Positions 3,407 to 6,929 of a stretch of DNA of 64,000 nucleotides are shown here, piece after piece; position 1 is the stretch's first letter, and every line of letters begins with the position of its first letter. This DNA comes from Bacteroidales bacterium. Lineage in GTDB: Bacteria > Bacteroidota > Bacteroidia > Bacteroidales > UBA932. Position numbers and translations under genes: made by a program. Below the pieces are notes generated by a model, which worked only from the letters and a program-made list of their open reading frames with translations, searched no databases and was not told the origin of the DNA. The stretch spans positions 1-64,000 of the forward strand of contig JAFWOY010000015.1 in the NCBI GenBank assembly GCA_017509755.1. Reading direction: 5' to 3'.

Positions 3407-4429
3407 ATGAAACTAGATACACTCAATAAGTATTTCAACGGAACCGCTTCGGATGACGAGCGGCGGGAAGTGCTCGCCTGGGTGGAAGAAAGTCCTGCAA
3501 ACAAGGAGGAATTCCAACAGCGCGAAGCCGATTTTCTCTTCGCTTCGATGCCTGACACGGAAGCTTCCCAGGCGGCTACGACCCACATTCTCAACGTGAT
3601 TGCGCCCAAACGGCGGAAGATCCGGATCCTGAATGCCGTGGCCAGCGCAGCCGCTGTTTTCGTGGTCGGCGCCTTCCTCTGGGTCCTGCACGACAACAGC
3701 CGCCTCAACAGCCAGGTCGCCAGCCTGACGGCCCAGAACGAGAAACTCATCGCCATCCCGGAACTCGTCCAGGGCGAATCCGTCCTCAACTACAAGGTCA
3801 ATCCCGGCGTAAAGGGCAGAATAACCCTGCCCGACGGCAGCGAGGTTATCCTCAACAGCGCCAGCACGCTCCGCACGCCGGCCCGCTTCGAGAACGGCAA
3901 GCGCGTGGTGGAACTGGAAGGCGAAGGCTATTTCAAAGTCGAATCGAATCCCGACTGGCCGATGTACGTCCGCACGAGCCGGGGCGTCACCGTCAAGGTC
4001 ACCGGTACGGAATTCAATCTATCCACTTATAGCGACGATGCGGCCCTCAAACTGACGCTTGTCCGCGGCAAGGTCTCGCTGCTCGATGAAAAGTCCGAGA
4101 CAGAAGTCGTTGTCCGGGAGAAGGAAGAAGTGGTCGTCGGCGCAAGGGCCCAGCTGGAGAAACCCACCCGCAAAACGGCCGACATGAAGCTCAACACCTC
4201 CTGGAAAGACGGCTACCTGGTGTTCGACAACACGCCCATCCGCGAGGTCATCAAGAAAATGGAACGCTGGTACGGCGTCGATATCACCGTGGCCGACGCC
4301 CGCGTGATGAACAACACCTTCACCGCCAGTTTCCGCAGCGAATCGCTCCAGCAGGTACTAACACTGCTGAGCATCACCTGCGACATCCACTCAAAAATAA
4401 AGAGCCCCACCGAAGTGGAGCTCTGGTAG
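3407..4429 (+). CDS. FecR family anti-sigma/sensor protein (system A)
   Basis: The 340-residue protein has a cytoplasmic N-terminal segment (MKLDTLNKYFNGTASDDERREVLAW), one membrane helix at about residues 72-90 (ILNAVASAAAVFVVGAFLWVL), a periplasmic FecR beta domain with LPDGSEVILNSASTL and GEGYFKVE, and a C-terminal domain (YLVFDNTPIREVIKKMERWYGV). In the FecIRA paradigm it relays substrate occupancy from the STN domain of the TonB-linked transporter to the sigma factor. Its last ten codons (ending in PTEVELW) also form the left copy of a 31-bp repeat duplicated beyond the neighbouring ATPase gene. Confidence 0.9.
   Translation: MKLDTLNKYFNGTASDDERREVLAWVEESPANKEEFQQREADFLFASMPDTEASQAATTHILNVIAPKRRKIRILNAVASAAAVFVVGAFLWVLHDNSRLNSQVASLTAQNEKLIAIPELVQGESVLNYKVNPGVKGRITLPDGSEVILNSASTLRTPARFENGKRVVELEGEGYFKVESNPDWPMYVRTSRGVTVKVTGTEFNLSTYSDDAALKLTLVRGKVSLLDEKSETEVVVREKEEVVVGARAQLEKPTRKTADMKLNTSWKDGYLVFDNTPIREVIKKMERWYGVDITVADARVMNNTFTASFRSESLQQVLTLLSITCDIHSKIKSPTEVELW
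4399..4429. repeat. 31-bp direct repeat, left copy (3' end of fecR)
   Basis: The block from AAAGAGCCCC to CTCTGGTAG is identical to 5674-5704. It contains a 10-bp hairpin with one mismatch. Read on the minus strand, the loop is TTCG closed by C-G. It includes the fecR stop codon. Confidence 0.9.
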
Positions 4430-4464
4430 AAATCTTTGCAACCTGCTGCAGCACCCCGATGACA

Positions 4465-4508
4465 ACACAAATTTGTGTTACACAAGTTTGTGTTACACAA
4501 ATTTGTGT
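4465..4508. promoter_or_regulatory. Three tandem 14-bp palindromes, period 15 bp
   Basis: ACACAAATTTGTGT at 4465-4478, ACACAAGTTTGTGT at 4480-4493 and ACACAAATTTGTGT at 4495-4508. The outer copies are perfect palindromes and the middle one differs at its centre. The third copy covers the TTTG at 4502-4505 that sits at -33 spacing to the ATPase promoter. An operator array for a dimeric repressor is the simplest reading. Confidence 0.75.
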
Positions 4509-4533
4509 ATTTGCAATAAAAAACTTACCTTCG
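4502..4533 (+). promoter_or_regulatory. Putative promoter of the ATPase gene
   Basis: TTTG at 4502-4505, 20 nt, then TACCTTCG at 4526-4533. This is close to the Bacteroidota TTTG-N19-21-TAnnTTTG consensus, with one mismatch in the -7 box. The start codon is 16 nt downstream. Confidence 0.5.
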
Positions 4534-4549
4534 TACAAAGAATAAAGCT

Positions 4550-5671
4550 ATGGAACAACCTTTTGTGTTCGGCGTACCTGCTGAAGATCCGCATTTCATT
4601 GGAAGAGAGAAGGAAATGGCCCGCCTGGAGACCAATTTCAAATATGGCGTAAATACCGTTTTGATGTCCCCCAGACGCTGGGGAAAGACATCCTTGGTAA
4701 ACAGAGCCGTACGGTCGATCAAGGAAAAAGGTCGCATCGTGGTGCAGATGGACATCTTTGCCTGCCGAAGCGAATATGACTTTTACAATACTTTCGCTGC
4801 AGCCGTTCTCCAGCAAACCGCATCCAGAATAGATGAATGGAAGAACTTAGCGAAAGGTTTCATCGAAAGACTGACACCGAAAATTTCCTTGTCGCCGGAT
4901 CCGGGAACAACCTATTCCGTCTCGCTGGGGATTACGCCGAAGACGCATACTCCGGAAGAAATACTCTCACTTCCTGAAATAATTGCCGAACGGAAAAACT
5001 CTGAACTGATCATCTGTATCGATGAATTCCAGCAGGTGGGTGAATTTCCTGATTCTTTATCTGTCCAGAAACGACTCCGGAGTATATGGCAGCATCAAAA
5101 GCACGTATCCTACTGTCTGTATGGCAGCAAACTGCATATGATGACGCGTTTGTTCCAGAGAAAAAGCTATCCTTTCTACCGTTTTGGCGAAGTGCTGAAC
5201 TTGGAGCCGATTCCTCTTCAGACATGGATCCCATATATTCAAGGACGCTTCATGGCATTTGGCAAAAAGATTGAGGAGAAATATATAAAGCAAATCTGTG
5301 ACATAGTCTCGTATCAAGCCTCCTACGTTCAGCAGTTGTCTTACTCCGTGCTCCTGTTTTCGGAAAAAGAAGCAACGGATGAATCCTTTATACAAGCCGT
5401 AGATGACCTGCTAGCACAAAATAACAATGTATTTATTGAGCAGACCCAGTCTTTGACAACGTACCAGCTGAATTTCCTTCGTGCCGTTCTTGACGGGGTT
5501 TCAAGCCGTTTTGGCGAAGCAGCGATCCGGGAACAATACAATCTGGGCTCTCCTTCCAATATCACACGTCTCAAGACATCCATGACTGAAAAAGAACTGG
5601 TAGAATTGACAGAAAAGGGGATTGTTATTGGAGATCCGGTCTTGAAGCTCTGGCTTGACAAGATATTATAG
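4550..5671 (+). CDS. AAA-type ATPase (ATPase_2/MNS-like P-loop NTPase)
   Basis: The 373-residue protein begins EQPFVFGVPAEDPHFIGREKEM, the N-terminal box typical of this family. It has a P-loop variant SPRRWGKTS (residues 40-48), a Walker B strand LIICIDEF (about 153-160) and a C-terminal winged-helix-like region (LGSPSNITRLKTSMTEKELVELTEKGIV). Such ATPases occur as expanded, apparently mobile paralogues in Bacteroidota and archaea; their cellular role is poorly defined. The gene is poorer in G+C than both neighbours, is preceded by three operator-like palindromes and is bounded by 31-bp direct repeats, which together suggest acquisition. No toxin or nuclease domain is visible. Confidence 0.85.
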   Translation: MEQPFVFGVPAEDPHFIGREKEMARLETNFKYGVNTVLMSPRRWGKTSLVNRAVRSIKEKGRIVVQMDIFACRSEYDFYNTFAAAVLQQTASRIDEWKNLAKGFIERLTPKISLSPDPGTTYSVSLGITPKTHTPEEILSLPEIIAERKNSELIICIDEFQQVGEFPDSLSVQKRLRSIWQHQKHVSYCLYGSKLHMMTRLFQRKSYPFYRFGEVLNLEPIPLQTWIPYIQGRFMAFGKKIEEKYIKQICDIVSYQASYVQQLSYSVLLFSEKEATDESFIQAVDDLLAQNNNVFIEQTQSLTTYQLNFLRAVLDGVSSRFGEAAIREQYNLGSPSNITRLKTSMTEKELVELTEKGIVIGDPVLKLWLDKIL

Positions 5672-5673
5672 AA

Positions 5674-5704
5674 AAAGAGCCCCACCGAAGTGGAGCTCTG
5701 GTAG
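5674..5704 (-). terminator. 31-bp repeat, right copy; terminator of the tlpA operon
   Basis: Read on the minus strand this is GAGCTCCAC-TTCG-GTGGGGCTC followed directly by a run of T. It is a classic intrinsic terminator with a stable UUCG tetraloop, 7 nt after the stop of the convergent tlpA gene at 5712. The sequence is identical to 4399-4429. Confidence 0.8.
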
Positions 5705-5711
5705 CTTAGAA

Positions 5712-6929
5712 TTAATTGCCGTAGATTTTTACCAGCTGGCGGTCCAGGCGGGCGTCACGGCAGTTGGTCTCCACCACTTCCCCGTCGGGGCCGATGAGTA
5801 CGCAATGGGGAATGCCGTTGAAGTTATAAGTCTTCGCCACTTCCCCGAAACCATCCTCGCAGGCAAGCTGTGTCCAGCTCATCTGCTCCTCACCCAGCGC
5901 CTTTTTCCAGGCATCCAGTTTATCGTCCATCGAGACACTCACGATATCGAAGCCCTGCGGGTGATAGCGTTCGTAAACCTCCTTCAGATGCGGAATCGAA
6001 CTGCGGCAGGGGCCGCACCACGAAGCCCAGAATTCGAGCAGGGTATAATTGCCTTTGCCCAGGTATTCGGACAACTGGTGATGCGCATCCGAGGCATCGA
6101 CGAGCGTCACGTCCGCGAACTTGGCACCGTCGGCCGTAGCGGAGATGACATTCACACGTTCTACCACGGCCGTGCCCAGCGGCGTAGCTTTCACTTTCGG
6201 AGAAAGCATTTCCAGCAAGGCTGCAAGTTCGGCCTGGTTGAATTTTCCGGCCGTTTCCGAAAGCGCCAGCACGCCGGCAGCATTGTCGGCGTTGCGCGTG
6301 ATGAAGTCTTTCAGGAAAGCCCGCTCATCAGCCTTGGCGGCGTCGATCTTGTCCAGTTCGGACACGATGTAGTCGATGGTTGCATCCTTCTGGTAATAAT
6401 AGCGCTGGTTGAACCGGCCGGTAATATCGGCCGTGACTTTGCCCAGCCGGCTGTATTCCCGTTGATACTCCTGATAGAGACCGGCGAGGCGGGATCCGCT
6501 CATCGTCACGTCGGCATAGTCATAATTGCCATAGGCATAAAACTCGAAATCGCTCGTCAGGCTGTCGACAGGTGCTTCCACCCGGATCGTACCGCCGTCC
6601 ACCAAAATGGGCACAACCGGATGCATCAGGATACCCCGATCGTCCGAGGCGGCCCGGCGATCGTCGGGGAAATACTTGAGGATCATCAGCGCAGGTTCTT
6701 CTACCGTACCTCGGAAAGTAAATTTCCCGTCACGGATGACGGTACTGTCGATCACTTCGGGTTGGAACCGGCTTTCGGGCTCCACCCCGGCGCGGGTCAG
6801 ATAAACGGTTTTTCCTTCCACATCGCCGGTGAAACGGCCGTCGATCTGGAACTTGCCACTGTTTCCGCCGCAGGCGGAAACAAGCAGGGCGGCCCCCAGG
6901 GCCGCCGCTGCAATTAATTTAGTCTTCAT
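5712..6929 (-). CDS. TlpA/ResA-type thioredoxin lipoprotein (system A)
   Basis: The 405-residue protein has a lipobox (LLVSAC, Cys about 20) and an N-terminal beta-rich DUF4369-like domain with the usual FRGTVEEPALMIL segment. A helical middle region and a C-terminal thioredoxin-like domain follow, with FWASWCGPC at about 301-308 and the cis-Pro motif GIPHCVLI. Proteins of this design sit in the periplasm or outer membrane and carry out thiol-disulfide exchange, usually reductively. It is the last gene of the minus-strand susCD A unit, 16 nt downstream of another TlpA paralogue. Its substrate is unknown. Confidence 0.88.
   Translation of the reverse strand: MKTKLIAAAALGAALLVSACGGNSGKFQIDGRFTGDVEGKTVYLTRAGVEPESRFQPEVIDSTVIRDGKFTFRGTVEEPALMILKYFPDDRRAASDDRGILMHPVVPILVDGGTIRVEAPVDSLTSDFEFYAYGNYDYADVTMSGSRLAGLYQEYQREYSRLGKVTADITGRFNQRYYYQKDATIDYIVSELDKIDAAKADERAFLKDFITRNADNAAGVLALSETAGKFNQAELAALLEMLSPKVKATPLGTAVVERVNVISATADGAKFADVTLVDASDAHHQLSEYLGKGNYTLLEFWASWCGPCRSSIPHLKEVYERYHPQGFDIVSVSMDDKLDAWKKALGEEQMSWTQLACEDGFGEVAKTYNFNGIPHCVLIGPDGEVVETNCRDARLDRQLVKIYGN

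Follow-up and report, generated by a model that had tools for sequence, protein, structure and literature searches.

The window, by which we mean the whole 64,000-nucleotide stretch of Bacteroidales DNA analysed here, carries a fecR gene and a convergent tlpA-like thioredoxin gene with a single gene for an AAA+ ATPase between them (Table 1). An earlier reading of the sequence alone had proposed that an exact 31-bp duplication bounds the ATPase gene, and a repeat search recovered this direct repeat at the same positions, with 1,275 bp from start to start. The left copy comprises the final nine codons of fecR, its stop codon and a single further base; 7 bp separate the end of the right copy from the stop of the tlpA-like gene on the opposite strand. 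The ATPase gene is the sole open reading frame between the copies. The unit has the low G+C content that had been claimed for it (45.5% for the ATPase reading frame, against 57.8% for the window), and fecR and the tlpA-like gene are both intact, in keeping with the suggestion that both would stay functional. Inspection of the listed window reading frames showed no recombinase, as the sequence-only reading had also noticed, and no transposase beside the unit; the repeat search reported no inverted repeat at the two ends of the unit.

Table 1. Features of the fecR-tlpA locus, in window coordinates
Feature	Position	Strand	Basis or content
fecR, left neighbour; 3' end is the duplicated target	3407..4429	+	ORF; FecR and FecR_C domains
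Left copy of 31-bp repeat	4399..4429	+	native fecR 3' end with stop codon
Inserted unit, 1,244 bp, 44.4% G+C	4430..5673		sequence between the two repeat copies
Tandem array, three palindromes, period 15 bp	4465..4508		sequence
Presumed promoter and leader of ATPase gene	4509..4549	+	position and TTTGC / TTACCTTCG letters
AAA+ ATPase with C-terminal winged-helix-like part, 373 aa	4550..5671	+	ORF; near-cut-off Pfam matches; model and fold matches
Right copy of 31-bp repeat	5674..5704	-	minus strand: UUCG hairpin and U-tract, likely terminator of tlpA
tlpA-like thioredoxin gene, right convergent neighbour	5712..6929	-	ORF; thioredoxin-like domain match

On the minus strand the repeat folds into a UUCG-loop hairpin with a U-tract behind it (-17.6 kcal/mol, z -5.2, with 0 of 200 shuffles as good). 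Because both copies fold, both resemble terminators on that strand; within fecR (window 4393-4429, minus) the terminator fold also has a U-rich tail, and the hairpin there sits within the coding end of the gene. A scan of the genome (2,536,719 bases, 46 contigs) for the 22-bp hairpin core, allowing up to three mismatches, returned two copies, both at the window site, and the reversed control pattern gave no match in the same genome. We therefore rejected a dispersed repeat, which the sequence-only reading had named as a finding that would speak against insertion.

Upstream of the ATPase gene, three 14-bp palindromes stand at an exact spacing of 15 bp, two of them reading ACACAAATTTGTGT and the third differing by a single change. 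The letters that follow the array presumably mark a promoter, whose type is predicted. The position of the array just upstream of this presumed promoter suggests autoregulation, and the array is probably an operator through which the winged-helix part of the ATPase would regulate its own gene.

The predicted protein scores 31.5 bits against ATPase_2 (PF01637; E 1.9e-7), below the gathering cut-off of 33.2, and matches AAA_16 just under its cut-off. The motifs SPRRxGK(T/S)SLV and CIDEFQ, which we take to be the conserved nucleotide-binding motifs, are nearly invariant in 114 relatives. An AlphaFold model constructed from a 14-sequence alignment (mean pLDDT 85.8, with residues 103-130 below 50) displays an AAA+ fold with a winged helix, of the Orc1/Cdc6 type. 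Its best fold matches are PABY2304 (2qen, Z 24.6) and SSO1545 (2fna, Z 22.8), followed over the whole model by Orc1/Cdc6 structures (2qby, 2v1u and 1w5t, Z about 17 to 20); the NLR, TnsC and MuB ATPases reach Z of about 15 to 17. None of these likenesses of fold by itself shows a function, and families missing from the fold-match lists were given no weight. Assignment to a defence system was rejected, the best PADLOC match having an E-value of 0.0019.

The ATPase is not fixed among relatives of the window genome, the other circumstance that had been named as adverse to insertion: at E ≤ 1e-60 it is matched in 9 of 40 genomes of the genus, its own included, and apart from the query itself all of these matches are less than 50% identical. 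The site can be followed through the tlpA neighbour, which was found at E ≤ 1e-40 in 3 of 41 genomes searched, again including the window's own. In G003, of the same genus, a sigma factor gene, fecR and tlpA share the arrangement of the window at 86, 85 and 75% identity, and the stretch holds no ATPase. The G003 fecR gene has one end, coding for ...SPTEVELR and a stop, in the same place as in the window fecR, so that the left repeat copy is the native gene end. The insertion and the empty site that had been anticipated are thus borne out by a relative, although the junction is not base-perfect: the G003 genes are separated by about 200 bp of intergenic sequence unlike that of the window. In G014, the tlpA neighbour lies in another gene order.

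Sites of other ATPase relatives were compared in the same manner. At the L050 site, 2 of 8 genomes were matched, its own included; the second, G276, has a related gene with a broken reading frame and no ATPase within a 4.8 kb stretch. The neighbour gene of L017 occurs in 5 of 200 genomes, one of them its own, and the stretch examined in the 4 others is free of the ATPase. Seven relatives were available for the L020 site: prfB and fumarase are adjacent in 4 (L084-L087) and 3.2 kb apart in 1 (L083), and prfB falls outside the stretch in 2. None of the seven has an ATPase match there, but this is not a clean empty site, as L020 holds other extra genes in that place. The neighbour gene of L124 is present in 15 of 19 genomes, with differing left neighbours. 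In one genome of the L124 comparison, left of an exonuclease-like gene (L162, G457:C8), array-like palindromes are kept and the ATPase reading frame is gone, which looks like loss by deletion.

Relatives of the ATPase were sought with differing E-value limits in genome contigs (20 loci), in the genus as given above, in the order (22 of 295 genomes) and in the family (88 of 398 genomes). From the family search the best 30 matches were taken as loci together with 40 regions, and the weakest matches are represented only where they belonged to earlier sets. Flanking direct repeats were called at E ≤ 1e-5 and a length of at least 25 bp, with the upstream copy ending within 300 bp and the downstream copy starting within 150 bp of the gene. 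The labels sigma, FecR, thioredoxin and ATPase come from domain search; the labels prfB, fumarase, MBL-fold, lipoprotein, peroxiredoxin, exonuclease, ACT, DUF4298, integrase and XRE were read from translations. The 111 loci compared are not all independent, since the identical L021 and L043 were both kept, as were other vertical orthologs; L089 was dropped as belonging to the same genome as L017.

By this fixed criterion, a direct repeat flanks 10 of the 111 ATPase loci. Among 186 other genes taken from these loci and from the window, none has one (Fisher p 4e-5; 9e-4 if 7 of the 111 are counted instead). Exact matches of at least 12 bp were found at 12 of 111 ATPase loci compared with 19 of 3,330 mispaired flanks. 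After inspection, eight of the 111 loci, the window included, were accepted as carrying repeats that resemble target duplications. These range from 16 to 461 bp and have no common sequence: they are exact in the window, L020 (40 bp), L091 (30 bp) and L124 (16 bp), have one mismatch in L016 (19 bp), and in L017 (119 bp) and L050 (461 bp) are 96.6% and 93.5% identical; L150 has a 25-bp repeat (92%) and an exact 56-bp pair that brackets two ATPase genes. L016 and L124 were accepted from outside the fixed criterion, whereas repeats of L113, L136 and L145, also outside it, were left out of the eight. We rejected the repeats of four criterion loci (L023, L056, L063 and L133) and of two loci from the exact-match comparison (L058 and L135), judging them to be operators, terminators or dispersed repeats. 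The remaining 103 loci show no accepted scar, presumably through age, and the paralogs in the window genome itself, on C30 (43% identical) and C7 (26-29%), have no flanking repeat.

The duplicated stretches themselves are of several kinds. The 119-bp repeat of L017 spans the overlapping stops of two convergent reading frames, and the 461-bp repeat of L050 runs across a terminator that has the ends of an MBL-fold gene and a convergent gene on either side. The L091 repeat includes the stop of the upstream reading frame, the L150 repeat covers the 3' coding part of the upstream gene as far as the final codon, and the L020 and L124 repeats are intergenic, behind a stop. According to a simple ORF caller, the neighbours are convergent at 37 sites, divergent at 8 and codirectional at 57. 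Seven of the duplications were folded, the 461-bp repeat of L050 being left out, and a significant hairpin appeared only in that of the window; the other six are not significant hairpins, and we rejected the hairpin as the insertion target. The proposals that a terminator hairpin is the special target, and that insertion resembles the rebuilding of tRNA genes by integrases, are accordingly not supported: the duplications vary in sequence and length, with no constant site. What survives of the predicted duplications around other copies of the ATPase is that local sequence is doubled at some of them, several times as a gene 3' end. The best reading of the hairpin in the window is that it belongs to the site at which this copy happened to insert. 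At L150 (G352:C64), two different ATPase genes follow one another and are framed by three copies of a single gene's 3' end (1543-1598, 2826-2856 and 4309-4364, in ATPase orientation), a pattern that looks like successive insertions at one place.

The extent of the unit emerges from pairs of loci with closely related ATPases in unrelated flanks. The shared sequence, 97% identical in each of three pairs, runs from -107 to +3 around the reading frame in L015/L016, from -76 to 0 in L039/L040 and from -116 to -5 in L121/L125; in L093/L094 it is 93% identical and runs from -85 to +22. Other close pairs have one or both flanks in common and are vertical or rearranged. No end sequence shared between units was found by eye. 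L016 holds 93 bp beyond the stop border as defined against L015. An intact integrase-like reading frame lies directly upstream of the ATPase start in L034, and approximately the last 125 codons of it persist in L016 and the last 10 in L015, a shrinking remnant that fits passenger DNA. In L125 (G680:C1:35207-38837), two ATPase relatives, with 41 and 47% identity to the query, point towards each other within a stretch of 4 kb.

A tandem repeat (at least 12 of 14 positions matching) precedes the ATPase at 79 of 118 loci. In 78 of these the period is exactly 15 bp, the remaining one being a run of N (L134); such a repeat was seen in 2 of 112 control windows and in none of 118 shuffles. The letters of the array vary by subfamily (ACACAA-TTGTGT, TTAGTAATAA, CCACAATTTTGTGG) and the period is constant. 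The unit is thus made up of a 15-bp-period tandem array, a presumed promoter and the ATPase reading frame, and the proteins form an AAA+ family that is widespread, uncharacterised and accompanied by such an array. In L063 (G260:C20), an 83-bp copy of the array region (84% identical) begins right behind the ATPase stop, which suggests a second unit in tandem.

We compared the nucleotide identity of the ATPase with that of prfB in 15 pairs of genomes. The ATPase is the more similar of the two, often by far: 93.1 versus 67.5% in a pair from two genera, 89.9 versus 58.7% and 89.3 versus 63.3% in pairs from two families, and 97.0 versus 80.8% in one further pair. The gap is small in 2 of the 15 (G001/G053, 86.1 versus 85.5%; G445/G591, near-identical genomes, 99.6 versus 98.2%). 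The pairs were picked for close ATPases, and they show that transfer occurs, not how frequently. As judged by these nucleotide comparisons, the ATPase unit spreads horizontally. Carriage by plasmids was rejected (3 plasmid records only, at 25-26% identity), as was carriage by phages (2 records, at 34 and 26%), and a pattern scan of viral contigs gave no ATPase relative. The prfB-like match of the window genome (L183, G000:C26:37127-38182) has one in-frame TAG.

Beyond these observations (the duplication, a relative without the insertion, scars at some relatives, sharp-edged units in unrelated flanks, and horizontal spread), we consider it probable, although far from certain, that a horizontally mobile one-gene unit was inserted between fecR and tlpA with a long, variable target duplication. 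The mobile unit of the sequence-only reading is thereby retained, but its unusual target is neither a terminator hairpin nor any fixed site. The unit, consisting of array, promoter and ATPase gene, would have arrived between fecR and tlpA in linear or circular form and been ligated into a break in the chromosome. The two strand cuts of this break would have lain 31 nt from each other (16 to 461 nt in relatives), and fill-in would then have doubled the stretch between the offset cuts. Such joining would require no recognition of ends and no fixed site. Selection may keep those insertions that fall between gene 3' ends, where the duplication would leave each neighbour its own intact end. The variable duplications, with no common site or visible common ends, argue against the usual integrase or transposase and in favour of joining at offset breaks with fill-in. 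Counting against random joining, which does not predict it, the unit has tight borders, close to the array on one side and to the stop codon on the other. The proposed insertion also has against it that 103 of the 111 loci lack an accepted scar, that the G003 junction is imperfect, that L016 extends 93 bp past the border, that the repeats of L017 and L050 suit homologous recombination as well, that two of the 15 genome pairs barely separate ATPase from prfB, and that some loci are not independent.

Among the alternatives, a circle that carried the ATPase together with part of a gene end of another strain could have recombined with the chromosome by homology (Campbell type), leaving direct repeats. 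Homologous recombination would account for the long, diverged repeats of L017 and L050, but those of 16, 30, 31 and 40 bp are exact and sharp-edged, and lengths of 16-40 bp are short for this process. It also requires an earlier insertion through which the circle had acquired the same gene end, and we regard it as unlikely. The tight borders, unexplained by joining at offset breaks, lead us to keep a further reading, in which the AAA+ winged-helix protein and the 15-bp array would themselves be mobility machinery: a recombinase-free, one-gene element whose initiator-like ATPase, attached to the array, would copy out the unit or replicate it as an episome that is then joined to breaks in the chromosome, doubling a target stretch of variable length. 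We hold this to be rather unlikely; if true, its signature would be the constancy of the 15-bp period together with the tight borders, which run from array to stop codon.

Alternatively, an integrase supplied in trans could insert the unit site-specifically at terminators or the 3' ends of genes, the 31 bp being an attachment site restored on both sides. Some integrative elements use gene 3' ends as attachment sites, and the window unit shares with them a repeated gene 3' end and a gene left intact; gene 3' ends lie within several of the duplications, and L034 has its integrase-like gene beside the ATPase. Among the window reading frames, however, no integrase was seen by eye in or beside the unit, the repeats between copies contain no constant attachment sequence, and the integrase codons left in L016 and L015 look like those of a passenger. 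On balance this seems quite unlikely. We are more doubtful still of in-trans transposition by a transposase of the IS1549/IS1634 kind. The direct repeats of these elements are reported to be long and of variable length, 8-514 bp (PMC2266710), which is the likeness to our loci, but there the transposase is encoded by the element. The window unit shows neither a transposase gene nor terminal inverted repeats, and no common ends were found by eye. That the repeats are merely unrelated terminators, operators or dispersed repeats, as six in our sample were judged to be, and that nothing was inserted, is hardly credible given the drop in G+C between the repeats, the G003 junction, the 0 of 186 control genes and the horizontal spread.

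A limited literature search met no description of an ATPase of the window type as mobile. When genes spread between genomes and no carrier is known, a patchy distribution is usually the one sign of it; in the present case several genomes show, at base resolution, the unit that moves, where it begins and ends, and the scars of its landing. As to the protein, the archaeal ATPase_2 members SSO1545 and PABY2304 match nearly the whole model, but at about 15% identity, and the window ATPase is bacterial, has a 15-bp-period array upstream and has a Pfam score just under the cut-off. The Orc1/Cdc6 initiators likewise appear similar in fold over the whole model and have a repeat array beside the gene; at 10-15% identity, this likeness is one of predicted fold and array position and implies no origin role.

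The closest known process to the probable insertion between fecR and tlpA is insertion with long target duplication, as described for restriction-modification genes (Nobusato et al. 2000, as cited in PMC1643837, PMC3874152 and PMC3031569). In the cases described there, a unit with no mobile element of its own is present in one genome and absent from a relative, flanked by long, variable direct repeats on the order of 100 bp, and in each of these respects our loci agree. The cargo differs: the unit described here, from Bacteroidales, encodes an AAA+ ATPase, has repeats of 16 to 461 bp and a 15-bp-period array per unit, and its sole reading frame in the window matches ATPase_2 and AAA_16 only, not a restriction-modification gene. 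The process is thus similar and the system is not the same, and insertion with long, variable target duplications, an old loose end, can now be tested outside restriction-modification systems.
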